Of a stretch of DNA of 22,899 bases, positions 9,976-22,899 are shown piece by piece. The position numbers and the translations under genes were made by a program. Location of the stretch: the IMG/VR virus record IMGVR_UViG_3300032291_002670, positions 1 to 22,899 of that record; one strand, written 5' to 3'. Source of the DNA: a virus. A model generated the notes under the pieces. It was not told the DNA's origin, searched no databases, and saw only the letters and a list, made by a program, of their open reading frames with translations. How positions within the stretch are numbered: the stretch's first letter is position 1; the number at the start of each line of letters is the position of its first letter.

Positions 9976-11016
9976 ATGAGCATCGGCATTTATACGCACT
10001 ACGCCCAGTGCGACGAAACGTACTTTGCCATTCGGCTCGCCAATTTCCTTCGGGACATTGGCGAGAGCTTTTCTGTTTATTCAAACTGTGCGCCGGCTAA
10101 GCTTAAAACGGTATATGACAACAGAATCCACCACCGTAAAAAGATCAAGTACACAGATTGGGTGAAAAAACATAACGTTGTTATCTGGACTCATGTACCC
10201 AAGATTGAGCAGATCAATTACGCGAAGCGCAACAACATAATCACAATCGTCGTGCCTATGTGGCAGGATTTGACGTCGCCGTTCCGTAAGAGCATCAAGA
10301 ACGCCGACCACGTTGTCGCAATGTCCACAGACTGCCGAGACTTGTATCACGCTGTTTACAAGTTTCGGAACGTCAGCATGATCCCGTTTGATACGGGGTT
10401 ACCCGTGACGAAAAAAGAGAGTCGTGTAGACCCGCGAAAGATAAAAGTCTTCTTGCCGTGGTTCGACCGCAACGCGCGCTGCACGCAGTCTGAGTTCTTA
10501 GCGCATCTAGAGTATCTTGTCTTGCGGATGGAAGAACTGTACCTGACTGTAGCTATCTCTTCCAGTAAATTTGCCCCCGCGATCGCGAAGTTCTTTCAGA
10601 AGCGTGGCCTGCAAACAAACCGCGTTACAGTACTGCGCAACGTTAAAATCTCTGATCGTCCGGCCCTGTACGCCGCACATGACCTGACGATTTTCCCGGC
10701 AGAATGTGACAATTACGGCTTCTGTAATTTAACTTCTATTACCTGCGGTACACCCGTTTTAACGTTTGCTGTAGGCCCGCAGGCCGATTTTGTATACCCA
10801 GACTCAAACGGCGTAGCGGTAAAAACAGAGGTGGATTACGATGAGAACGGCGTACCGCACGCCAACCCCGACTACGACCGCTATATTTCGACGCTGCAGA
10901 CGCTAATTGCTGAGCCGCATCATATAGATAGCTTAAACAGAAAGGTCAACTACAATCTCAACTCACGACGTAAATCGTTTGAGAGTGGTTGGCGGGCTCT
11001 TCTGCGCCTCGTATAG
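9976..11016 (+). CDS. GT-B fold glycosyltransferase (GT4-like)
   Basis: The 346-residue protein starts with a Rossmann-type strand and loop (MSIGIYTHYAQCDE). Its C-terminal half carries the nucleotide-sugar-binding signature of GT4-like enzymes: LTIFPAECDNYGFCNLTSI, where an acidic residue, Gly and the segment SITCGTPVLTF match the usual E-x7-E/GTPV pattern. It should move a sugar from a nucleotide donor to an unknown acceptor. It begins three bases after the portal gene, so it is probably made with virion proteins. There is no signal peptide or membrane span, so it acts in the cytoplasm. Targets could be virion proteins, DNA or host glycans; the sequence does not decide. Confidence 0.75.
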   Translation: MSIGIYTHYAQCDETYFAIRLANFLRDIGESFSVYSNCAPAKLKTVYDNRIHHRKKIKYTDWVKKHNVVIWTHVPKIEQINYAKRNNIITIVVPMWQDLTSPFRKSIKNADHVVAMSTDCRDLYHAVYKFRNVSMIPFDTGLPVTKKESRVDPRKIKVFLPWFDRNARCTQSEFLAHLEYLVLRMEELYLTVAISSSKFAPAIAKFFQKRGLQTNRVTVLRNVKISDRPALYAAHDLTIFPAECDNYGFCNLTSITCGTPVLTFAVGPQADFVYPDSNGVAVKTEVDYDENGVPHANPDYDRYISTLQTLIAEPHHIDSLNRKVNYNLNSRRKSFESGWRALLRLV

Positions 11017-12133: not shown

Positions 12134-12817
12134 ATGTTCATTTGCTTTGAGGGCATTGATGGCGCCGGCAAAAGCACGCAGGCGCGCATGCTGCACCAGC
12201 ATCTTCTCGACGAAGATTACCCGGCGGTGCTTGTTTCTGATCCCGGTACGACGCGCATCGGGACAGCTATACGGCAGATATTGTTGAACAACGATGAGCC
12301 AATCTCGGCGGCTTCTCAAATGCTTTTGTTCTCTGCGGCTCGCGCAGAGTTGGCTAACTATATCGCAGAGAATTTACGGGTTGGACACGCGGTTATCTGT
12401 GACCGCTGGCTGCTATCCACGCTGGTCTATCAGGGCGAGATAAATAACATAAGCGTCGATCTTATTACGCACATATTTCGCGAAACTTCTTTTCTCCAGC
12501 CAGACATCTGCTTCCTTCTCGACATCGCGCCTGACGACGCGGCGGTCAGAATGGGCGCGCCCAGTGACAGGTATGAGCGCCGATGCGCGGAAGAGCGCCA
12601 CCTTATGCGCTCTGCCTATCTTCGTCACGCGCATGAGCGGCCAAACGCAAAACGAGTTTGTGTTATTTCTGCCGACCAAGCGCCGGAAGAAACACATGAA
12701 CAGGTGTACGGGTTTGTTCGGTCATTTCTATGTGAAAATATGAGGGAGCAAAAGCATGGATGCGACGCTAGAGACGCCGATTCAGCAATTACGCGAAAAG
12801 GCTGTTTTCACCGCTAA
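12134..12817 (+). CDS. tmk: Thymidylate kinase
   Basis: The enzyme phosphorylates dTMP to dTDP with ATP and would raise dTTP supply for phage replication. The Walker A loop is exact (FEGIDGAGKST, residues 5-15). It is followed by DPGTTRIGTAIRQIL (family EPGGTxxGExIR), LLFSAARAEL, CDRWLLSTLVYQG (family DRYxxSxxAYQG) and PDICFLLDI with a later DRYE. The 227 residues are slightly long for the family, about 205-215. The last 25 or so (REQKHGCDARDADS) do not look like kinase sequence and overlap the next gene by 62 bases. Asp for Glu and Trp for Tyr in two core motifs are unusual. Confident overall. Confidence 0.88.
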   Translation: MFICFEGIDGAGKSTQARMLHQHLLDEDYPAVLVSDPGTTRIGTAIRQILLNNDEPISAASQMLLFSAARAELANYIAENLRVGHAVICDRWLLSTLVYQGEINNISVDLITHIFRETSFLQPDICFLLDIAPDDAAVRMGAPSDRYERRCAEERHLMRSAYLRHAHERPNAKRVCVISADQAPEETHEQVYGFVRSFLCENMREQKHGCDARDADSAITRKGCFHR

Positions 12818-13253
12818 GAAAGAGGCGCAAAGGTTAGAGCGCCGCCTGCTAGTCTGCGACGAGCACCGGACAGTAAACGCCGCTTTCCGCCGTATCTGCT
12901 ACATGTTGCACTCGATGGCGCAGAAGTACGTCCCAGACTCCGCGACTACTTTCTCTGACTACAAAGCGCTGCTGTACTGCACCAAGCTGCTGCAGTCCAT
13001 GGGTTTTAAACCGCCGCTAAGTCCCGAGATGGACGCGTCCGCCGAAGACGTTAGCCTTGAAATAGTAAGAAACTCCTTTGAATACCGCCATTTGCGCAAT
13101 AAAATAATGGCTAGCTTGTCAATCATTGCCGACCTCACAGAGCGACCAGCTGGCATGGGGTCTCTGGACTATCAACGTGGTATGAGAGAAGGCTATAGAC
13201 GCGCAAGCGATATCGCCATTATGTTTCTTGACGACATTTCTTCGCGAGGTTAA
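12756..13253 (+). CDS. Unknown 165-aa helical protein
   Basis: AGGGAG at 12743-12748, 7 bases before ATG 12756, supports this start although it lies within the end of the thymidylate kinase gene. The product is mostly helical and charged: REKAVFTAKKEAQRLERRL, FRRICYMLHSMAQKY, and a C-terminal part GSLDYQRGMREGYRRASDI followed by AIMFLDDI. It is soluble and Lys/Arg-rich, with no enzyme motif. I do not recognise the family. It ends two bases before the next gene. Confidence 0.65.
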   Translation: MDATLETPIQQLREKAVFTAKKEAQRLERRLLVCDEHRTVNAAFRRICYMLHSMAQKYVPDSATTFSDYKALLYCTKLLQSMGFKPPLSPEMDASAEDVSLEIVRNSFEYRHLRNKIMASLSIIADLTERPAGMGSLDYQRGMREGYRRASDIAIMFLDDISSRG

Positions 13254-13255
13254 TC

Positions 13256-13516
13256 ATGCAAATAGACGTCATTCTTGCCGAACTAAACGACCGCAATCCT
13301 GACGCGGTGCTGCTCGACAACATGCGCGACGCCATTGTTGGCCTCGGTACTGTTGGGCATCACGACCCAGTGGCTGTGTATAGTCGCCGCCGCATTATTG
13401 AAAAGCTTTGTGCTGACGGATTTTCTGCCGAAGATGCAGAAGAATACGTCTCTAAGTTTTCGAATCTCTGGGCGGCTGAGAATACGCCAGTCATTTTAGA
13501 CGACATTTTGGAGTAA
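13256..13516 (+). CDS. Unknown 86-aa protein
   Basis: The ATG is two bases after the previous stop, with GAGGT just upstream. The product is small, acidic and helical: IDVILAELNDRNPDAVLLDN, SRRRIIEKLCADGFSAEDAE, and a C-terminal NTPVILDDILE. A hydrophobic heptad-like spacing is visible, but there is no known motif. It ends five bases before the next start and belongs to the same operon-like run as its neighbours. Confidence 0.6.
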   Translation: MQIDVILAELNDRNPDAVLLDNMRDAIVGLGTVGHHDPVAVYSRRRIIEKLCADGFSAEDAEEYVSKFSNLWAAENTPVILDDILE

Positions 13517-13521
13517 CTTCA

Positions 13522-13830
13522 GTGGCGACAATTGCGGTAAACGAAGCTGACAACATTCAATTTGTAAACGTCGGCGCCAATGCAAAAGAATCACCGACGT
13601 TGATTATTCAAGCCGGCGACTGGGAAAATGGCGGGACGATGGAGCCCGGAGTTGTGTTCGACGTCTTTGGCGCACAGGCGCCGATCTTGACCACGAACGA
13701 CGCGCGCAAACTAGCCAAGTGGTTGACTCGCGCCGCTGATTCTTTAGACGGCGTGAAAAACAACGATAAAAAGCGCAAAACAAGAAGTCACTACGAGACT
13801 GACGAAAACGAGTTTGACAAGTATTCGTAG
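13522..13830 (+). CDS. Unknown 102-aa protein with GTG start
   Basis: GGAG at 13510-13513 lies 8 bases before GTG 13522, making this the likely start (no ATG is available near the N terminus). The first 80 residues look like a small beta-rich domain (TLIIQAGDWENGGTMEPGVV; FDVFGAQAPILTT) with a closing helix (DARKLAKWLTRAADSLD). The tail is charged and probably disordered (KKRKTRSHYETDENEFDKYS). Function unknown. It is the last gene before the intergenic region that leads into the tail-fibre genes. Confidence 0.6.
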   Translation: MATIAVNEADNIQFVNVGANAKESPTLIIQAGDWENGGTMEPGVVFDVFGAQAPILTTNDARKLAKWLTRAADSLDGVKNNDKKRKTRSHYETDENEFDKYS

Positions 13831-13860
13831 TCTTCGTTTTTCGCCCACGCCCGACTGAAC

Positions 13861-13890
13861 TATAATTAAACGGCCGGCATACGTTTAATT
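13861..13890 (+). promoter_or_regulatory. TATAAT box overlapping a perfect 9-bp inverted repeat
   Basis: In the 82-base gap before the fibre genes, TATAAT at 13861-13866 overlaps AATTAAACG (13864-13872), which pairs perfectly with CGTTTAATT (13882-13890) around a 9-base loop. No good -35 hexamer lies 16-18 bases upstream; TTTTCG is the nearest. The AT-rich dyad on a -10-like box suggests a regulated promoter/operator. A weak, GC-poor terminator is the alternative, but no T-run follows. Confidence 0.45.
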
Positions 13891-13912
13891 CGTTCTTGCT
13901 CACGGGCGCGCT

Positions 13913-15133
13913 ATGGCCACTAAAAAGATTTCTGAACTGCCGGAGAAGCTCGACCCAGCGGTTGAGGACATCCTCCCGCTCGTTGACGCGACCGACCCAA
14001 ATAACTTAATCACTAAGCGCACGACCGTGGGTGCGCTAGTTGCTTTGATTCCGGGTGGCGGCGGTGGCGGTGGTGGCGGCATAGGTGCCACCGGTTTACG
14101 CGGCCCGACTGGCGTACAGGGAGCGACAGGGCCCTCTGGCCCGACTGGCGCCGCTGGTGTGCGCGGCGTAACAGGTGTCGCTGGTCCAACGGGCGCCGTC
14201 GGTCCGACAGGCGCAGCTGGTCCGACAGGCGTCGGCATCACCGGTATGACTGGCGCCACGGGCTTGTTTGGCCCGACCGGTGTTCTAGGCGCGACTGGGC
14301 CCACGGGCCCAGTTGGTATTTTTGGCGCGACGGGCGCCATCGGTACGACTGGCGTGACAGGACCCACCGGTCCGCAGGGCAATGCCGGCCCGACAGGTTT
14401 AGCTGGTCCTTCTGGCGTTGTCGGCACTGTCAGAGCAGCTGACGTTGTATTTACATACTCAGGCACCAGCTACACAACAGCTGACGATGCGTTGCGCGGG
14501 CTTATTGCCGGCGGGACTGGCGGAGGTGGAGGAGGTGGCGGCGGCGGTATCGTAACGCCAAAAGCTTCGCTTACGAGCAACGTGCGGCAAGTCGAGTACG
14601 GGGCTACAGTTACGAGCGTGACTTTGAATTGGGTGTGGTCAAGCGTGCCGACAATCGTGTCGCTCTCGCTATCTGGAGTGGGCGCAATTGACCCAGCACT
14701 CGCCAGCTACACGCTTAATGACTTAAATATCACAACCGATACAACGTACGCGTTAACTTATGGCGTTACCGTAGAGGGCATTGACGGCACGATAATCAAC
14801 ACGGCTACGACAAGTATTTCGTTTTTACCCAGACGGTACTGGGGCTACTCCGCGGCTGCCGAACTTGACGATGCAGGTATTTTGGCACTATTCTCGGAGC
14901 TTGCAATAAACAGGCTGCAAACCCGAACACTTAACCCGGCTAACCAATATCTCTATTTTGTTTGGCCGGAAGCGTACGGCACTCCTACTTTTAAGTTCAA
15001 CGGCATAGCGAATTCGGCGTGGATTTTGACGATGCGTACTGTTATAAATGCGTATGGCGCGGCTGCGCCGTGCAACATCTACCGCAGCGAATATAAACAG
15101 AGTGGCGCAAACATCGTGATTGAGGTGCTGTAA
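13913..15133 (+). CDS. Collagen-like tail fibre / adhesin
   Basis: This 406-residue protein is modular. Residues 1-47 resemble a phage fibre attachment domain ([10 protein letters not shown], then [17 protein letters not shown]). Nine Gly (48-56) form a hinge. Residues 58-173 are 38 Gly-X-Y triplets (GAT, GPT, GPQ types) that should form a collagen-like triple helix, so the fibre is trimeric. A second ten-Gly hinge lies near residue 205. The C-terminal half is beta-rich ([38 protein letters not shown]) and is probably the receptor-binding or tip region. Thr fills the third place in 19 of the 38 triplets. It is the first gene after the intergenic dyad, and its stop overlaps the next start. Confidence 0.82.
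14084..14431 (+). repeat. Gly-X-Y triplet array (collagen-like)
   Basis: There are sixteen triplets, then a two-residue Gly-Val interruption (residues 106-107), then 22 triplets. At DNA level the array is a degenerate 9-base period (GGC/GGT-N3-N3) with frequent CCGAC(A/T) blocks. Thr is the most common third residue. The codons vary, so the array is not a recent exact tandem duplication. Confidence 0.85.
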
Positions 15134-15390
15134 TGTCGGCTATTCGCGGGACAAATGTCGGCGCGCCTATTGTCCCCGGCGCGGAAGCGGATCAGTTTCC
15201 TACGCACATTGATAAATACGGCTCTGGCGGTTACAGGGCGGTGCTCAACAACGCCGCCCGCGACGCCATTCCAGTGGCTCGGCGGCAGGCGGGTATGGTA
15301 GTATTAGTTACCGAAACTCAGCAGTCTTGGGTGCTATCAGACGACTTAACTACGTGGATTGAACAAGTTTTAGACGGCGGTAATTTTTGA
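15133..15390 (+). CDS. Small accessory tail/fibre protein, 85 aa
   Basis: The start shares one base with the fibre stop (TAATG). The N terminus is Gly/Pro-rich (GTNVGAPIVPGAEADQFP). The following RAVLNNAARDAIPVARRQ, then AGMVVLVTE and SWVLSDDLTTWIEQ, resembles a short domain I know from phage fibre operons and from the attachment parts of larger adhesins (type R..IP..RR..GM.V.V......Y.L...T.W). It is probably a structural or connector piece of the distal tail. It lies between two fibre genes, and its TGA stop is part of the ribosome binding site of the next gene. Confidence 0.65.
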   Translation: MSAIRGTNVGAPIVPGAEADQFPTHIDKYGSGGYRAVLNNAARDAIPVARRQAGMVVLVTETQQSWVLSDDLTTWIEQVLDGGNF

Positions 15391-15403
15391 GGTGAAATAT
15401 GGC
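15387..15403 (+). promoter_or_regulatory. Ribosome binding site leader shared with 17422-17438
   Basis: TTGAGGTGAAATATGGC holds the stop codon of the previous gene (TGA), the AGGTG ribosome binding site and the next ATG. The same 17 bases with one change stand before the gene at 17434. Confidence 0.6.
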
Positions 15404-16781
15404 TAGTATTTTACGTATTCGTCGGCGGATTACAGGCGCCGCCGGGGCGCCATCGTCGTTAAAAAACGCAGAATTGGCATACAATGAAATTGAAAATGTC
15501 CTTTACTATGGAAAAGGCGATAACGGCAGCGGCACCGCTACGAGCATTATTCAGATCGCCGGCTCCGGCGTGTATGCCACTACGTCATACGTTGACCAGA
15601 CGTTTTCGAAGCTAGGCGCCAGCAATACGTTTGTAGCGGGTTTTACAAACACGTTTGCCGGCACGTTAAATATTTCTGGCACGTTCCAGATTGGCGGCAC
15701 AGCAGTCAATAGCACAGCCGCTGAGCTTAATACGTTGAACAGCGTGACGGCTGGTACAGCCGCTGCGAGTAAAGCGCTCGTTCTTGATAGTTCCCGCAAC
15801 ATCGAAAACATCAACAGGCTGACGGCGACGAGCCTGCAGAATGCCGCATCTAACCCAACGTTCACAGTGAGCAGTGCTGGTGCAGTGGTAGGCGCAAGCC
15901 TGACGTCGGCCACAATTAATATCGGCAGCAGCGCGTTTACCGCCAGTAGCTCGGCTGCCGCGTTTACGACCTCGCTACAATCGGCCTCGTTCTCGACAAG
16001 CGGTTCTGGCAATATTACTGCTGGCGGCGATCTTATCGCGACGGGCAACGCCTATGCCTCGACCAACAAAAAGTTGGCGACAGAAGAGTACGTAAACTCT
16101 GTGCAGCAGGGCTTAGACGTCAAGCAGTCCGTGCGCGTGGCCACGACTGAAAACATTACGCTGAGCGGCACACAGACGATTGACGGTGTAGCCGTAGTCG
16201 CCGGCGACCGCGTGCTGGTCAAAAACCAGACTAACGGAATTAACAATGGTATCTATGTTGTTGCCGCCGGGGCGTGGACGCGTTCCACAGACGCAGACGT
16301 TAACGCCGACGTCACAGCTGGGCTATTCACGTTTGTTTCAGAGGGTACGCAGAACGCGGACTCCGGCTGGATTCTGACGGCTGACGACGCAATTGCAGTT
16401 GGTACAACCAGTTTGACTTTTGTGCAGTTCAGCGGCGCGGGCATGATCACGATTGATAGTGCGTCTACTGCCAACGTGACGAGCGGGCTTGAAAAAGACG
16501 GGAACTATCTGCGCCTCGACGTGCGCTTGAAGCGGATTGCCAATCTTACCGGCGTCACCGCTGACAAGCTCATCTATGTGAGCGGCACAGATACGTTTTC
16601 CACGACAAATTTTACAGCCAAGGGTCGTGATCTCGTAGCCGGCGTTGACGCGGCTGCCATGCGGACGACCTTGGGACTCGGGTCTATTGCGACGCAAGAG
16701 TCCAACAACGTCTCAATTTCGGGCGGCAGTATTTCAAGCGTAACGTTAGATTTGGTAACGCTTGACGGCGGCGTGTTTTAA
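15399..16781 (+). CDS. Long tail fibre protein
   Basis: The 460-residue protein begins with an attachment module (MASILRIRRRITGAAGAPSS, then LKNAELAYNEIENVLYYG) common at the N terminus of phage fibres. Residues about 60-200 are Ala/Ser/Thr-rich, with the fibre repeat TAAELNTLNSVTAG and ASKALVLDSSRNI, likely a trimeric beta-helical shaft. Residues about 225-350 match a widespread fibre domain (LATEEYVNSVQQGLDVK; QTNGINNGIYVVAAGAWTR; SGWILTADDAIAVGTTSLTF). The rest is another shaft-like part, ending SSVTLDLVTLDGGVF without a recognisable chaperone or depolymerase domain. It probably forms part of the distal tail that contacts the host. Confidence 0.82.
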   Translation: MASILRIRRRITGAAGAPSSLKNAELAYNEIENVLYYGKGDNGSGTATSIIQIAGSGVYATTSYVDQTFSKLGASNTFVAGFTNTFAGTLNISGTFQIGGTAVNSTAAELNTLNSVTAGTAAASKALVLDSSRNIENINRLTATSLQNAASNPTFTVSSAGAVVGASLTSATINIGSSAFTASSSAAAFTTSLQSASFSTSGSGNITAGGDLIATGNAYASTNKKLATEEYVNSVQQGLDVKQSVRVATTENITLSGTQTIDGVAVVAGDRVLVKNQTNGINNGIYVVAAGAWTRSTDADVNADVTAGLFTFVSEGTQNADSGWILTADDAIAVGTTSLTFVQFSGAGMITIDSASTANVTSGLEKDGNYLRLDVRLKRIANLTGVTADKLIYVSGTDTFSTTNFTAKGRDLVAGVDAAAMRTTLGLGSIATQESNNVSISGGSISSVTLDLVTLDGGVF

Positions 16782-16787
16782 GCAAAA

Positions 16788-17069
16788 ATGGCTGTCACAC
16801 TTCGACATAAACGGAGCACGACCCCGGGCGCAGTGCCGCAGCCGGCAGACCTGCTGCCGGGTGAGCTAGCGGTCAACGTCGCTGACAAAAAGTGGTTTAC
16901 AAAAACAGCTGCTGGCGCTATTGTTTGTTTGAACTTTTTGACGGTGTTGGACGGCGGCGAGATTACTAGCGGTGACAGCGGTGGTAGTGGTGGCGGAGGT
17001 GGTGGAATCAGCGGGCTGTCAAACTGGGTGGCCGCGAGCAGAGAATTTAACTATAGCTGGAGCAACTAA
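16788..17069 (+). CDS. Short fibre-like protein: anchor domain plus Gly hinge only
   Basis: The first 50 residues (TLRHKRSTTPGAVPQPADLL, then PGELAVNVADKKWFTKT) are the same sort of anchor as in the preceding long fibre. A Gly/Ser run follows (GDSGGSGGGGGGIS) and then only 20 residues to the stop (SNWVAASREFNYSWSN). Usual fibres continue for hundreds of residues. This is either a remnant that lost its tip or a small adaptor. No frame in the next kilobase extends it, because the next genes start on their own. It begins six bases after the previous stop. Confidence 0.7.
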   Translation: MAVTLRHKRSTTPGAVPQPADLLPGELAVNVADKKWFTKTAAGAIVCLNFLTVLDGGEITSGDSGGSGGGGGGISGLSNWVAASREFNYSWSN

Positions 17070-17071
17070 TT

Positions 17072-17425
17072 ATGCCCGCCCCAAATCTAAATAGCCCAAC
17101 ACGCGTTGAAGGTAAGGTTGCCGCGCTGGCCATTACCGCGACGCCGACAAGTATTGTGGCTAATGCCGCGGACAGCAATACTGTAGTGCGTATTAACACG
17201 TTAATGGTAAGCAACGTAAATGGCGCAACCGCTGGTAGCCTAAATGTTGACTTGTACCGCGGCGGAGTGGCGTATTTTTTCGCAAAAACAGTTAGTATCA
17301 ACCCAGATGAAAGTCTGAGCATATTTGATCGGTACGTGTATTTGGAGCCCGGCGACAGCTTACGTTTAACAGCAGATGCGGCAGAAAAAATGCACGCTGT
17401 GTGCACGTACGAAATAATCTCTTGA
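17072..17425 (+). CDS. Small virion structural protein, 117 aa
   Basis: The ATG is two bases after the stop of the short fibre gene. After a 15-residue polar start the chain is a run of strands: VAALAITATPTSIVANAADS, VVRINTLMVSNVNG, AYFFAKTVSINPDESLSIF, and DRYVYLEPGDSLRLTADAAE. The central pattern (contact residues, then YLEPGDSL) resembles a compact beta-sandwich protein often found among phage tail and neck genes, although I cannot name the family. Its stop lies in the shared TTGAGGTGAAAC leader of the next gene. Confidence 0.65.
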   Translation: MPAPNLNSPTRVEGKVAALAITATPTSIVANAADSNTVVRINTLMVSNVNGATAGSLNVDLYRGGVAYFFAKTVSINPDESLSIFDRYVYLEPGDSLRLTADAAEKMHAVCTYEIIS

Positions 17426-17438
17426 GGTGAAACATGGC
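17422..17438 (+). promoter_or_regulatory. Ribosome binding site leader, near copy of 15387-15403
   Basis: TTGAGGTGAAACATGGC differs from the leader at 15387 by a single base. It contains the upstream TGA stop, AGGTG and the ATG at 17434. Confidence 0.6.
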
Positions 17439-18825
17439 GCTTATTGCGTATGAAGGTTTTGAAAACTACAGTTCGTTTAATGACGTAAAATCGTTTCTAG
17501 GTTTTGCAAACTATCAGACTGCCAGCATTATCAACATTACGGACAATGTCATCACTGCGCGTAATAGCTTGAGTTGCCTGAAGATGGTGAGCAGCCGAAC
17601 CTACAACACCGGCTCAGAAATCAATACTGCGCGCGACTACTATCCAAAATTCACCATCGCGTCGCCGACAAACGAGACGTACACAAATGGCGTTGTTGGT
17701 TTTGCTTTCTATCCCCGCTTACCGTCTGGTGGTGGCTGGGGTCCGTTTACGCCAATTGCGGCAATCGTAGGCTCGGATAACAAACCGCATTTCTACATTT
17801 GCTTAAACGCCACATACCAGATTGAGATTCGTCGCTGGAACACTGCCGCGACGATGTCTGGGCGTAATTCTGTAACGGCGGCAAATTATACGTGGAATCA
17901 AGACCACGTTGCGGTTGGTTATAACGAAGGTCAGTACTGCAACGAAGGTCGTACGGGTTATGAACATCACGTCACCGCGCCTTACACGTATTCTTGCAAC
18001 AGCATCAACGCGTCTTGGCCAAGCGCGGCAGCGTCTAGTACAAAATTTGAACTAGTCGGCGCAGCAAGTAATGTTGCGGGCAATTTGATCGTTCCAAATC
18101 AGTGGAATTACATTGAGATCAAATTCGTGTTAGATAACGCCGCGTCGTCTAATACGGGTAGCGTGCAAGTCAAAATCAATCGTAACGCCGAAGACAACAC
18201 CTTTGATCTAGACCTGAGCAACGTGCGCACAAGTACACAGGCGACAAATACATATCAAAAATTGATGTTTGGCATTGTCTGGGCGCACACGTCAGCCGGT
18301 ACAAATGGCGCCGCAAATCTTGGCTGGACGACTTACATTGACGACATCTATTGGCTTGATACAACAACAAGCACGCTCAACAATTTTCTTGGCCGCGTCA
18401 GCTGTCAAAAAATAAACTACACCACAAACGTAAGCAACACTGCGTTCACTGGCGGTTTGTCTGCTATTCAAGAACCGTTTTCGGGTCCACTGAGTTATAC
18501 GCTGCCCGCAGGTTCTGGTGGCGTTATAGCGTTTAACGCCACTAATCAAGATATCACTTTTTCTGTGTCGGCCGCGCCTATTGCGTTTAAACCGTTGGCG
18601 GTACAGCAGTTTGTTTACGGCCATAAAGATGGCGGCAACAACGTTGTACGCTGTCGCGGAAACTATCTTGGCGCCGTGTCCGCAACTACTGATTTAACGC
18701 TAACAACAGATTCGACAAACGGCGGTATTCGGTACGCTACTTACACTACGGCGCCAGACGGCACCGAGTGGACAGCCGACAAGCTTAAAAACACACAATT
18801 TTCACACACAATTGTGACGCCATAA
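17434..18825 (+). CDS. Large tail protein with jelly-roll (LamG/ConA-like) fold
   Basis: The 463 residues start with LIAYEGFENYSSFNDVKSF and continue as a beta-sandwich-like domain: GVVGFAFYPRLP, HFYICLNATYQIEIRRW, YIEIKFVLDNAASSN, GSVQVKINRNAEDN, and TTYIDDIYWLD. The order (folded front, WNYIEIKF strand, then IDDIYW and NNFLGRV) is one I know from phage tail proteins with LamG-like, glycan-binding character. The last 100 residues are a separate beta-rich part ending EWTADKLKNTQFSHTIV. It should sit on the distal tail and may bind sugars. There is no enzyme motif. Its stop overlaps the next start (TAATG). Confidence 0.72.
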   Translation: MALIAYEGFENYSSFNDVKSFLGFANYQTASIINITDNVITARNSLSCLKMVSSRTYNTGSEINTARDYYPKFTIASPTNETYTNGVVGFAFYPRLPSGGGWGPFTPIAAIVGSDNKPHFYICLNATYQIEIRRWNTAATMSGRNSVTAANYTWNQDHVAVGYNEGQYCNEGRTGYEHHVTAPYTYSCNSINASWPSAAASSTKFELVGAASNVAGNLIVPNQWNYIEIKFVLDNAASSNTGSVQVKINRNAEDNTFDLDLSNVRTSTQATNTYQKLMFGIVWAHTSAGTNGAANLGWTTYIDDIYWLDTTTSTLNNFLGRVSCQKINYTTNVSNTAFTGGLSAIQEPFSGPLSYTLPAGSGGVIAFNATNQDITFSVSAAPIAFKPLAVQQFVYGHKDGGNNVVRCRGNYLGAVSATTDLTLTTDSTNGGIRYATYTTAPDGTEWTADKLKNTQFSHTIVTP

Positions 18826-20447
18826 TGCCGATAAAACGCACTAGCACACGTCTTACGGCTAAGTCCACGCAAGATTACAAACAAGTCTTGCGCGCCGCCG
18901 CTGCCGACCCCCTATCTGCGGCGGGGTCGCAAGTGAGTACTTTTGCCAGTAATTTGTTATTTTTTAGCCGCGACTTACCGTCGAGCGTAATCGTAGCGGC
19001 GGGCGTTCCGCTTGTTCTTTCTGTCAACGCGGAAGCAATTAATAGCCGTGCCGTTTTGAGTTATCAGTGGCAGCGCTCAACAGACGGCGTGACGTGGGTC
19101 AATGAGCAGCAGACAACAGCACGATACTCAAACACGTTCAACCTTGCAGATAACAATTTGCGGCTACGAGTACTAGTAACGCAAGATTTACGTACAATTG
19201 CGAGCGCTGTTTGCCAGCTTACTGTTCTAGCTGCGCCGGCGGCTGTTTCTGGCCTATCCAACTTTGACGACTCTACAATTAGCGGCGCGTATTTAAACGG
19301 GCTATTTTCTGATCAGCCGCTCGACCCGATGAGTGTAACAAAAACTTATTTCAGCGCCGTGTGCGCTGCTGTAATGTTTTCTGAGCCTGTAAGTGGCGCC
19401 GGCATTCCAACGATTAATCTTGCAACTACGCGGCTTTCGGTGCTACTAAGCCAACCAAACGATGTCACAAATTCGATACTGTCTTCTTTTGGTAAGGCGC
19501 AACTAACAGGCCTATTCGTCGATGCCGCAGACCCATCTGGTGCGTTTAGCGAGTCTAATAACGCAAGTCTGTTTTCTGTAGCCGGCCAGCCGTGTACTGC
19601 AAACATCGGCGGAACATCGTCTGCTAATTACACGTACACGGCAAATAATTTTCCAGCAAACTTAGTGTGCTCCGCTGCTGGACAAATATCTGGTTCCGTG
19701 GCGAGCGACGTTAATTTTGAGCGGCAGATCAGTGTAACTGCGACGCATAAAACAACCGGGCAGCAGTATAATCTCAATCTACTTTTGCGGCATGCGATGT
19801 TTTCGCCGCCAGCCACAGCAACTACTTCAGCGCTTGTGCGCCCGAGCACTGACGCCTCGCCCAGCGGTGTAAGTTACAGCGGTAATGCGCGGCAGTTATC
19901 TGCAACAGAGTTTTTACTAACGCCAAATCAAAACAACACGTACGGCACTGCAAGTTTCCCCAACGCTGCAATACAAAATCCGCGCGCATACAAATACAAC
20001 ACAAACGTAATTCGGTTTTCTTTTCAGTATCGTATTTGGGACGGAAACGGCGCAGACGGCTTGAGTTTTGAGTTTGCCCGAGGGTCGGAGAATCCTAGAT
20101 TGTCTACTGGGCCCGTATACGTTTCTGCCGGCATACGGATTGTATTTGACACGTATAACAATAGCGGCAATGACCGGGGCGTACGGATATACGTCGACGG
20201 CAACGCGCCCACACAAATCGTTTCTGGTTCTATACGGTCATCTACGTACAGAACTGTCGTGCTTGAACTTGATCTAACTGCAAACACGCTGTATTACTAT
20301 GTTGAAGGCTACATCGAGGGCACGCTTTCTATTGCCAATGCCGCAGTAATTACGCAAAAAAATGACTGGTCTGTATTTTTTACTGGCGCTTGCGGCGGCG
20401 CAAATGATACCCACTCTATTAACAATTTTACAATCACCTACAGTTAA
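18825..20447 (+). CDS. Ig-domain and lectin-like adhesin
   Basis: The 540-residue protein is built from beta domains. About residues 60-135 form a bacterial Ig-like domain (LSYQWQRSTDGVTWVNEQ, then RLRVLVTQD). A middle region contains GLFSDQPLDPMSV. Near residues 265-325 lies a putative-Ig/cadherin-like part (FPANLVCSAAGQISGSVAS). The C-terminal 170 residues resemble an L-type (legume) lectin sandwich: RFSFQYRIWDGNGADGLSFE, GIRIVFDTYNNSG, RGVRIYVDGN, then FTGACGGANDTHSI. The whole looks like a glycan-binding tail adhesin. The start overlaps the preceding stop by one base, and no ribosome binding site is visible, so translation is likely coupled. Confidence 0.72.
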   Translation: MPIKRTSTRLTAKSTQDYKQVLRAAAADPLSAAGSQVSTFASNLLFFSRDLPSSVIVAAGVPLVLSVNAEAINSRAVLSYQWQRSTDGVTWVNEQQTTARYSNTFNLADNNLRLRVLVTQDLRTIASAVCQLTVLAAPAAVSGLSNFDDSTISGAYLNGLFSDQPLDPMSVTKTYFSAVCAAVMFSEPVSGAGIPTINLATTRLSVLLSQPNDVTNSILSSFGKAQLTGLFVDAADPSGAFSESNNASLFSVAGQPCTANIGGTSSANYTYTANNFPANLVCSAAGQISGSVASDVNFERQISVTATHKTTGQQYNLNLLLRHAMFSPPATATTSALVRPSTDASPSGVSYSGNARQLSATEFLLTPNQNNTYGTASFPNAAIQNPRAYKYNTNVIRFSFQYRIWDGNGADGLSFEFARGSENPRLSTGPVYVSAGIRIVFDTYNNSGNDRGVRIYVDGNAPTQIVSGSIRSSTYRTVVLELDLTANTLYYYVEGYIEGTLSIANAAVITQKNDWSVFFTGACGGANDTHSINNFTITYS

Positions 20448-20450
20448 CCT

Positions 20451-21080
20451 ATGTACACACAAATTGTTGGATGCTACGGCCCGCAGGCTGGTGTTATTGC
20501 GCATCTTTTGAAACTTAGCGGCGTGTTTTTTAACGACGCTACAGATGACACAGCTGCAGATACGTTTACGCACAATTCGTTATTTGAAGACTACTATCGC
20601 CCGTACCTCGACACGCCTGCGCAACCACTGCCGGCTGACGTCACTAAAGAGTTTTACAGCTTTTTACGGCAAACTGATTTGTCGAATACCGCGTCGGTCA
20701 ATAAGACAGACTGGGTTGTGTTTGGCCAAGTAGCGACGCGTATTCGTGGCCGCCTGATTTTTGTGGCGTATTCAGTTGCCGGCTTAGAGAATGAATTTCC
20801 TGCGCCTGTTGACGCAGCGCAGTACGCCGTCGACCACGAGCGCGCATTAAATATGCTAGCCGCGGCCAAAGAAAACGGTTGGGAAACAGTCACGCTGGAC
20901 TATGACAAGTTTATAGCGCAGCCTAAGTATCGCGTTGCTACGTTTAACCAGCTGGGCTACGCACTGCCCGATACAGTTGATACTGTCATGCAGCTGTACC
21001 ATGACCAGCACGCACTGCTTGCTACGAAACAACATCTTGCTGCATTTACAGATGAAAATCCTGCTGACGGGCTATCCTAA
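20451..21080 (+). CDS. Sulfotransferase-like protein lacking the PAPS loop
   Basis: It begins three bases after the adhesin stop. The outline follows phage sulfotransferase-like proteins: an N-terminal strand and helix (IVGCYGPQAGVIAHLLKLSG), an NSLFEDYYRPYL segment like the ENPLFED of that family, and a C-terminal part HERALNMLAAAKENGWETVT followed by LDYDKFI. Where active enzymes carry SGTT/SGTS for the PAPS 5'-phosphosulfate, this one has GPQAG, and the Arg/Ser pair for the 3'-phosphate (cf. YRDFRDVLVS in the next gene) is absent. It is thus probably inactive, regulatory or of altered function. It overlaps the intact sulfotransferase by 29 bases. The assignment is tentative. Confidence 0.45.
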   Translation: MYTQIVGCYGPQAGVIAHLLKLSGVFFNDATDDTAADTFTHNSLFEDYYRPYLDTPAQPLPADVTKEFYSFLRQTDLSNTASVNKTDWVVFGQVATRIRGRLIFVAYSVAGLENEFPAPVDAAQYAVDHERALNMLAAAKENGWETVTLDYDKFIAQPKYRVATFNQLGYALPDTVDTVMQLYHDQHALLATKQHLAAFTDENPADGLS

Positions 21081-21798
21081 GTCCGGCACGACATATTTGT
21101 GCCGCCTTCTTGACTGCCTGTTGCAGGACACGCACCAGATATCTAAACAGCTTTCTTCTGATCTGAAGCGCGCATACCGCCGTGACGACCAGCGCGTTTA
21201 TTTCTCGTATCTCAATAACCCGCTCTACAATAAGCATCAGGTCGTCCCTACGTTTGCGCAGGCAATCGTTCTGTACCGCGATTTCAGGGACGTGCTTGTA
21301 AGCTGCTATTTCCAGCAGAAGTACCGCGAGGATACGAAATACTCTGGTACGCTGTCCGAGTTTATTGACTTTGACTTTGGCGGAATTCGCAGCATTGTGC
21401 GGTTCTACAACGCAGTCGAACACGCGCAGCCAAACATACTGGCTGTGTCATATGAGACACTAGCCGAAAGCTTGCCGGCTATACTCTCTGCGCTCGCTGT
21501 AGAAACCGACAGCGCGTTTATTCGGCGGTGTTTAGCCCAGAACTCGTTTGAGAATATGCGCAAACTCGAAGTCCAAAACTATGGCACCAGCGACATAGCA
21601 GAGCGCATAGAACTCGCGCCCAAAGACCTGACGAACATTGACACGTACAAAACACGCCGCGGCAAAATTGGCGGCTATGTAGACTATCTGACTCCAGACG
21701 ACATAGCTAAAATAAACGCCGTCGTGTTGGCTGAGTACAAGGACGCAGCAAGCAACAGGTGGTGCTATGCCGATTGCAATTCCAAGCCTGAGCATTGA
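21052..21798 (+). CDS. Sulfotransferase (PAPS-dependent)
   Basis: From ATG 21052 the 248 residues open with the phosphosulfate-binding loop at once (LLTGYPKSGTTYLCRLL, Lys10 and Thr13/14), which supports this start over an in-frame TTG at 20935. The 3'-phosphate site follows (IVLYRDFRDVLVSCYFQ, Arg76 and Ser84), then SFENMRKLE and the C-terminal TRRGKIGGYVDYL (residues 201-213), equivalent to the family's RKGxxGxW. All core parts are present, so it should move sulfate from PAPS to a hydroxyl group, most likely on a carbohydrate given its neighbours. It overlaps the genes on both sides by about 30 bases. It is cytoplasmic, with no membrane anchor. Confidence 0.85.
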   Translation: MKILLTGYPKSGTTYLCRLLDCLLQDTHQISKQLSSDLKRAYRRDDQRVYFSYLNNPLYNKHQVVPTFAQAIVLYRDFRDVLVSCYFQQKYREDTKYSGTLSEFIDFDFGGIRSIVRFYNAVEHAQPNILAVSYETLAESLPAILSALAVETDSAFIRRCLAQNSFENMRKLEVQNYGTSDIAERIELAPKDLTNIDTYKTRRGKIGGYVDYLTPDDIAKINAVVLAEYKDAASNRWCYADCNSKPEH

Positions 21799-22549
21799 AG
21801 TAGCAAAAAGCTGCAACCTAGCCTGCGATGGCTGTAATCACTTTAGCAACCTGTCTGGGCTAAAGGGCGCGCTCACAGCTGACGACGTAGCCGAGAACAT
21901 TGACCCGTGGGCGGCACATCTGGCGCCGGCTATATTCCGCATAGTCGGCGGCGAGCCCTTTATCTGCCCAGATATACTGGCCAGCCTTGCAGTCGTCCGC
22001 AAGGCGTTTCCCGACTCGCGCATTGATATTTTTACCAACGGCCTGCTGCTCAAGAACGACAAGTTTGATGATTACTTTGGCGCGTCACTGGCGGCCCTAG
22101 GTGCGCGGGTTCGGGTGTCCGTGCACTCTTTGGAGCCGGCGTTCTTAGACAGGCTGAAACCCGTGCGCGACAAGCTGAAACACTGGCGGGCGCAATACAA
22201 GCTGGACTTCGAGTTCGCTGACGCTGTGACTACATGGACATGGCCCTACAAACACATTGACGGCAAGATTCACCCCTACACCGACGACGACCAGACGAAG
22301 TCGTGGGATAAATGTGTCGGTAAGTGGTGCAAGCAAATTTACAAGGGCAAGATTTACAAGTGCCAATTAACGGCGTATTTGCAAGACGTCATAGACAAGC
22401 TGGATGACTCTTTTCTGCCGTATCTGAACTACACGCCGATCGCCTATACAGCCACGCCCGAAGAAATGGCGGAGTTCTTTTCCCGCAGAGACGAGTGGGT
22501 GTGCGCAGCTTGCCCGGCTAATCCACAGAAGTTTATCAAGGCTGTATGA
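21767..22549 (+). CDS. Radical SAM enzyme
   Basis: The 260-residue protein carries the radical SAM cluster motif C16-x3-C20-x2-C23 (VAKSCNLACDGCNHFS), the GGEPF segment at 61-65 and IFTNGLLL. Five more cysteines near the C terminus (C183, C188, C199, C246, C249; KCVGKWCKQ, YKCQLT, VCAACPAN) could hold an auxiliary cluster, as in SPASM-type enzymes. It would use S-adenosylmethionine to start a radical reaction on an unknown substrate. Relatives, as I remember them, occur in glycan and surface-modification clusters. Its start lies 32 bases inside the sulfotransferase gene, and its stop overlaps the next start (ATGA), so it is tied to the sulfate and sugar genes. Confidence 0.85.
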   Translation: MPIAIPSLSIEVAKSCNLACDGCNHFSNLSGLKGALTADDVAENIDPWAAHLAPAIFRIVGGEPFICPDILASLAVVRKAFPDSRIDIFTNGLLLKNDKFDDYFGASLAALGARVRVSVHSLEPAFLDRLKPVRDKLKHWRAQYKLDFEFADAVTTWTWPYKHIDGKIHPYTDDDQTKSWDKCVGKWCKQIYKGKIYKCQLTAYLQDVIDKLDDSFLPYLNYTPIAYTATPEEMAEFFSRRDEWVCAACPANPQKFIKAV

Positions 22550-22899
22550 TCACGCTCGTCGGCATGGTGCGGGATGAGGCTAAATATCTGGCTGAGTGGC
22601 TGACATACCACTGGCTGATTGGCGTCACTGATTTTGTTATCTATTTGCACAACTGCGCCGACGACTCCGCGCGCGTTATCAGCCAGTTGCCGTTTCCTGT
22701 AACGGCTGTCGCTGTCACTAGCGCCGAGATTGGCTGGGAGTTCAAAAACCGGATTTACAGGGCGGGCCTAAACGCCGCTAAAACCCCGTGGGCGGTGTGC
22801 TTAGACATCGACGAGTTCCTGTGTCTGCCCGGGCACGACAATCTAGCTGATTTTCTCGCGCAGGCTAAATTTGACTCCGCTAGCGGTATTGCCGTGCAC
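22546..22899 (+). CDS. GT92/GT2-like glycosyltransferase, 3' end cut by window
   Basis: ATG 22546 overlaps the radical SAM stop (ATGA), and the frame stays open for 118 codons to the window end. The N terminus is typical of family-92/family-2-like enzymes: MITLVGMVRDEAKYLAEWL, then FVIYLHNCADDSARV, and a DxD motif in AVCLDIDEFLCLP with Asp87 and Asp89. It should add a sugar from a nucleotide donor. Only about the first third to half of the protein is visible. The tight coupling to radical SAM and sulfotransferase genes suggests a joint pathway building a modified, perhaps sulfated, glycan. Confidence 0.75.
   Translation, partial: MITLVGMVRDEAKYLAEWLTYHWLIGVTDFVIYLHNCADDSARVISQLPFPVTAVAVTSAEIGWEFKNRIYRAGLNAAKTPWAVCLDIDEFLCLPGHDNLADFLAQAKFDSASGIAVH

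Follow-up and report, generated by a model that had tools for sequence, protein, structure and literature searches.

A recurrent phage gene cassette of sulfotransferase-like, radical SAM and glycosyltransferase genes located behind fibre-like genes

Sulfotransferases are known to be encoded by phages, where their role has been called unclear (PMC10580990). Glycosylation of virions is known as well, namely by the glycosyltransferases of mycobacteriophages (Freeman et al. 2023, cited in PMC12619734). Among radical SAM enzymes, BtrN carries an auxiliary cluster ligated by four cysteines (PMC9012708). The viral fragment of 22.9 kb that was analysed here as a whole, hereafter the window, comes from an uncultured tailed phage and brings members of these enzyme groups together, as its last 2.4 kb are filled by four overlapping genes. 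These code for degST, which is sulfotransferase-like and degenerate; ST, an intact sulfotransferase; a radical SAM enzyme; and GT, a glycosyltransferase. The sequence-only reading of this DNA knew of no described phage system of such make-up, and in the literature searched, mostly without subscription journals, no paper describing the degST/ST/radical SAM/GT combination was found. Likewise, no named phages close to ST, degST, the upstream EGFENYSS gene or the first 12 kb of the window were found.

Gene layout and protein families of the cassette

The features of the cassette and of the two genes preceding it are listed in Table 1. The ORF coordinates reproduce exactly the overlaps claimed earlier, which amount to 29 bp between degST and ST, 32 bp between ST and the radical SAM gene and 4 bp between the latter and GT. 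The upstream adhesin gene is separated from degST by 3 bases, which bears out the claim that the cassette follows receptor-binding genes without a gap as far as the spacing is concerned, while the label "receptor-binding" itself stems from a weak lectin match below the family cut-off. The GT gene is truncated by the end of the window and contig, with full copies available in L002, L003 and L004. An alternative TTG start at 20935 was listed for ST by the ORF program and was not accepted because the relatives start at MKILxTGxPKSGTT. Matches to the T4-type late promoter TATAAATA with at most one mismatch are scattered over the window, and none is found just before the cassette. Elsewhere in the window, a separate GT1-type glycosyltransferase (9976-11016) lies 3′ of a 643 aa protein without a family, and a thymidylate kinase gene (12134-12817, PF02223 at 4.6e-39) is located in the region preceding the fibre genes.

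Table 1 Positions of the cassette genes, their motifs and the two preceding genes in the window.
Feature	Position	Strand	Basis
EGFENYSS fibre-like virion protein (putative), 463 aa	17434..18825	+	Weak PHROG 2448; virion role suggested by neighbours
Second adhesin candidate, 540 aa, L-type-lectin-like C-terminal domain	18825..20447	+	PF18483 1.3e-8, below family cut-off
degST, degenerate sulfotransferase-like, 209 aa	20451..21080	+	Sulfotransferase-like by predicted fold only
ST, intact PAPS-type sulfotransferase, 248 aa, ATG start	21052..21798	+	Sulfotransfer_1 4.9e-18
ST motif PKSGTT, 5′-phosphosulfate-binding	21076..21093	+	Invariant in 7 sequences
Twitch-type radical SAM enzyme, 260 aa	21767..22549	+	Radical_SAM 2e-8
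CX3CX2C of SAM cluster (C16, C20, C23)	21812..21835	+	Invariant in 28 sequences
Auxiliary-cluster cysteines C183-x10-G-x4-C199 ... C246-x2-C249	22313..22513	+	All four invariant in 28 sequences
GT, GT2_4/GT92 type, first 118 of ~272 aa	22546..22899 (contig end)	+	PF13704 + PF01697

The degST protein has no family match in Pfam, PHROG or NCBIfam. Its predicted model (pLDDT 87.9) matches in Foldseek a phage sulfotransferase (probability 1.00, E 0.0066, rank 2 in the viral library), adenylate kinase (probability 0.97) and human TPST1 (probability 0.89), and the model looks like the P-loop kinase/sulfotransferase fold, with no fold match at E 0.001 or below. The loop is GxxGPQxxV-like and has no conserved Lys/Arg or Ser/Thr, so that the phosphate-holding residues are missing in all nine sequences, and the profile comparison with ST gives an hhalign probability of 0.1. 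An ordinary sulfotransferase is ruled out by both the loop without P-loop residues and the profile comparison. The earlier description of degST as degenerate sulfotransferase-like thus stands with respect to the lost cofactor loop and a predicted fold that looks sulfotransferase-like, while neither a family match nor a profile relation was found. Weak Piwi-like PDB matches (E 0.004) were judged to be chance because they are absent from the fold search.

In contrast to degST, ST belongs clearly to a known family, with a PF00685 score of 65.9 bits against a cut-off of 22, as had been proposed for an intact PAPS sulfotransferase. Its profile matches SULT1B1 at 2e-12 with both PAPS-binding segments aligned, and the PKSGTT, YRDFRDVLVS and RRGKIGGY segments, which align to SULT1B1, are invariant or nearly so among the relatives, while the segment where the cytosolic enzymes hold the catalytic His gives no alignment. 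Eight related contigs, which may be incomplete, revealed no APS kinase; on this basis PAPS made by the phage was rejected, and the sulfate must therefore arrive activated from the host.

The radical SAM enzyme matches its family above the cut-off, and the extra cysteines pointed out in the sequence-only reading are four invariant residues which fit a twitch domain with one auxiliary iron-sulfur cluster held by four cysteine ligands. In the profile search SpeY comes first at 8e-17, and in the fold search with the predicted model (pLDDT 92) SpeY is again at rank 1 (E 1.1e-12, TM 0.72), followed by MoaA, BlsE, EpeE and BtrN. SpeY is a twitch radical SAM sugar-ring dehydrogenase. As the twitch enzyme is nearest to SpeY in predicted fold, its unusual chemistry is most likely the oxidation of a sugar hydroxyl. 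The neighbours of the wider viral radical SAM family, among which DegT aminotransferases make up 10 of 109 genes (about 40 loci) and several are sugar-nucleotide enzymes, also fit an oxidation of sugar alcohols. Finally, the GT92/GT2-like assignment of the last gene holds, as both PF13704 (Glyco_tranf_2_4, 1.7e-15) and PF01697 (GT92, 3.4e-7) are above their cut-offs, and the D87-I-D89 residues of the DXD motif at 22804-22812 are invariant.

Recurrence, pairing with fibre-like genes and recombination

In viral contig scans, degST, the radical SAM gene and GT are found in one run in nine contigs including the window, which speaks against the possibility raised earlier that such genes are scattered and unlinked in other phages. 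ST is present in seven of the nine. All four genes are found in G001 (L002), G002 (L003), G003 (L004) and L021; in L009 and L010 the content is kept in the rearranged order degST, radical SAM, GT, ST; and L022 and L028 have degST, the radical SAM gene and GT and lack ST. In L022 extra sugar genes, GT32-like by look, are interspersed and an epimerase lies behind, and in L028 two additional radical SAM genes and a DegT-like aminotransferase follow the core. In a further contig, L008, just GT and ST, the end of the set, are present at the contig edge. The core of the cassette is therefore degST, the radical SAM gene and GT, with ST a frequent addition. Identities among the relatives range from 95% down to about 30%, and the overlaps are mostly the same in independent contigs with the same gene set. 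Past GT, the cassette does not run on into a longer pathway in L004 and L003: virion-like genes resume directly 3′ of GT in L004 and also after GT in L003, so the cassette consists of four genes. Of the phage-encoded glycan pathway proposed earlier, what remains is a set of linked sugar-type enzymes tied to adhesin genes, not a large pathway, and with an optional ST. A bacterial origin was rejected, as a pattern search of genome contigs with the degST and ST profiles, which could miss distant relatives, found no relatives of either.

The genes are under purifying selection, with dN/dS of at most 0.26 across genes in the computable comparisons outside the L002/L003 pair, which is nearly identical, has few changes to count and was set apart. 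The same set in independent contigs together with these values argues that the cassette is not a chance arrangement. For degST, which is open in ten contigs, dN/dS is 0.12-0.22 outside the same pair, and therefore it is not a dying gene; a decaying pseudogene is ruled out.

The EGFENYSS gene lies upstream of degST in all nine contigs with the core, five of the degST loci having come from a search independent of EGFENYSS, while the lectin-like adhesin (540 aa) is limited to the four close contigs. A scan for EGFENYSS genes of the closer kind gave 16 with readable downstream sequence on 15 contigs, the three tandem copies of L122 being taken as one, and the gene that follows is degST in 10 and a short sulfotransferase-like gene in 6. 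The partner gene comes directly after EGFENYSS or, in the four close contigs, next but one past the lectin-like gene. This rule is broken by EGFENYSS copies that are more distant (L129-L132 and the second copy in L010). Neither a solved-structure match nor a named relative was found for the EGFENYSS protein, and its location in the virion is therefore presumed.

In the reverse scan, the gene preceding the short sulfotransferase is EGFENYSS in part of the contigs and another large fibre-like gene in the rest, mostly overlapping or abutting it, and a 2OG-oxygenase-like gene comes next; the more divergent matches of the short sulfotransferase (L157-L166) are mostly without the oxygenase. Since it follows several kinds of fibre genes, the strict pairing is kept for degST only. 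No sequence relation was found between degST and the short sulfotransferase (hhalign probability 0.1). The pattern of a fibre gene, a sulfotransferase-like gene and an oxidising enzyme is therefore wider than the cassette, which is part of it.

Several further loci were noted during the scans. Short sulfotransferase-like (about 180 aa) and 2OG-oxygenase-like (about 195 aa, HxD and a distal H) pairs lie directly behind fibre genes in L120:3140-4259, L123:5348-6467, L125:8326-9511 and L126:8283-9390, and such pairs occur in many viral contigs. In L122:4476-10704, the three tandem EGFENYSS genes are followed by a pair of short sulfotransferase-like genes, a gene for a 2OG oxygenase and one of the Sulfotransfer_4 type. 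A degST homologue lies behind EGFENYSS without a radical SAM gene, GT or ST in L127:8407-9015, and another sulfotransferase-like ORF with a PRSGST motif is found among the fibre genes of L009 (9431-10285). In G001, a second sugar gene set (L111:1646-5487 and 12631-18393) comprises a GlcNAc-type GT, an FkbM methyltransferase, UDP-galactopyranose mutase and a mannosyltransferase/methyltransferase fusion, and a 1482 aa chain (L112:11217-15665, G001 31217-35665) with matched Rpb2 and then Rpb1 domains may be a phage RNA polymerase in which beta and beta′ are fused.

The block is mobile, with recombination at gene borders. With 17 kb of upstream sequence available in the window and 44 kb in G001, the two share at E 1e-4 the stretch that begins with EGFENYSS and ends with GT; outside it, only 65 residues of a fibre gene match. 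DNA identity between the window and L002 is 52% in the lectin-like gene and 58% in degST, and rises to 94% in ST and 91% in the radical SAM gene and GT, with the jump from 58% to 94% falling at the ST start codon within the degST/ST overlap. In L003, identity shifts again going from ST to the radical SAM gene and GT. The jump at the degST/ST border indicates that degST travels with the adhesins, while ST, the radical SAM gene and GT are swapped; the degST-adhesin pairing could, however, merely reflect recombination stopping at the end of degST.

Proposed function and alternatives

Going beyond the observed families, motifs, linkage, selection and border recombination, we infer the acceptor, the order of the steps, the role of degST and the purpose. 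The reading that we prefer, giving it about an even chance, is an adhesin-tailoring cassette in which GT adds a sugar, the radical SAM enzyme oxidises it, ST sulfates and degST binds the adhesin. The cassette would be made together with the phage adhesins. GT would put a sugar on an acceptor, most likely the neighbouring EGFENYSS or lectin-like fibre protein, the radical SAM enzyme would take two electrons and two hydrogens off a sugar hydroxyl to give a keto-sugar in the manner of SpeY and BtrN, and ST would transfer sulfate from host-supplied PAPS onto the sugar or the protein. The degST protein, whose binding of PAPS, if any, would be unusual, may serve the adhesin to which it is matched as a scaffold or by binding the acceptor. 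A decoration with negative charge would change how the host is bound or protect the fibre.

It appears unlikely that the cassette instead alters the surface polysaccharide of the infected cell, with masking of receptors or exclusion of competing phages, and that its position behind the adhesins reflects co-evolution with receptor choice. The same enzyme families do occur in phage clusters resembling polysaccharide pathways, namely in Synechococcus phage S-SCSM2R and in L022 with its epimerase and additional GTs, and recombination swaps adhesins as well as parts of the cassette. However, the cassette sits inside the virion gene block with overlaps of a few bases, it gives way to virion-like genes in L004, and no flippase, polymerase or lipid-carrier transferase is seen in the module.

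Quite improbable is a direct modification of the adhesin polypeptide, with ST sulfating, for example, tyrosine, the radical SAM enzyme oxidising or epimerising residues and GT adding a separate sugar. Human tyrosylprotein sulfotransferase is among the fold matches of degST, and the peptide epimerase EpeE and SuiB are among those of the radical SAM enzyme; 2OG oxygenases, which often hydroxylate residues, form the parallel fibre-linked pair with the short sulfotransferase. On the other hand, sequence and fold searches with the radical SAM enzyme both put a small-molecule sugar dehydrogenase first, and none of the peptide-maturase families reached the NCBIfam cut-off for it. That the genes are loose cargo of unrelated purpose, united by chance or co-transcription, is very unlikely, for while ST is optional, the gene order variable and sulfotransferases with unclear roles are scattered in other phages (PMC10580990), the three-gene core is found in nine contigs down to about 30% identity, always in the same place and with low dN/dS.

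Returning to adhesin tailoring, we consider, as somewhat less likely than not, a general phage system in which a fibre-paired gene of sulfotransferase fold is combined with enzymes for oxidation (radical SAM or 2OG) and for sugar transfer that can replace one another, to yield a sulfated, oxidised adhesin, with degST a new class of sulfotransferase-derived adaptor. The recurrence in otherwise different phages suggests that phages may chemically decorate their host-contact parts. If adhesins are indeed tailored with sulfate and keto-sugars, the sequence of an adhesin would not suffice to predict receptor binding, and adhesins produced recombinantly would miss an important part. The fixed link between a sulfotransferase-like gene and one fibre gene also offers a concrete, testable target for the role of phage sulfotransferases.

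Comparison with known systems

ST resembles the cytosolic-type sulfotransferases (SULT1B1, Sulfotransfer_1) in the PKSGTT loop, the R...S segment and the C-terminal RRG-type segment, and differs from them in being shorter and phage-encoded. The radical SAM enzyme shares with SpeY (7wzx/7wzv) and BtrN the CX3CX2C motif, one predicted four-cysteine auxiliary cluster, the predicted fold and the small size; in contrast, it is only 17% identical to SpeY and linked to a phage adhesin, whereas SpeY and BtrN are linked to an antibiotic pathway. In Synechococcus phage S-SCSM2R (PQ898602), a radical SAM enzyme of the same subfamily (28% identity) likewise stands beside GTs, but the cluster is larger and has a DegT-type aminotransferase and an amidinotransferase, with no ST, degST or EGFENYSS gene seen. 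These two enzymes make it more like an amino-sugar pathway. One run in that phage (L011:9408-13075) holds the DegT-type aminotransferase, the radical SAM enzyme, a glycosyltransferase, a 2OG oxygenase and the amidinotransferase; the DegT gene is annotated as 3-amino-5-hydroxybenzoic acid synthase, and the run resembles aminocyclitol (streptidine-like) chemistry.

The pairs in L120, L123, L125 and L126 have in common with the cassette a sulfotransferase-like gene that overlaps or abuts a fibre gene and is accompanied by an oxidising enzyme, while a 2OG oxygenase replaces the radical SAM enzyme, GT is lacking and the short sulfotransferase is unrelated to degST in sequence. Mycobacteriophage virion glycosylation (Freeman et al. 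2023, cited in PMC12619734) is similar in that a phage-encoded GT is expected to decorate virion proteins; the cassette adds a sulfotransferase, a putative sugar-type dehydrogenase and degST, and is located behind the adhesins.
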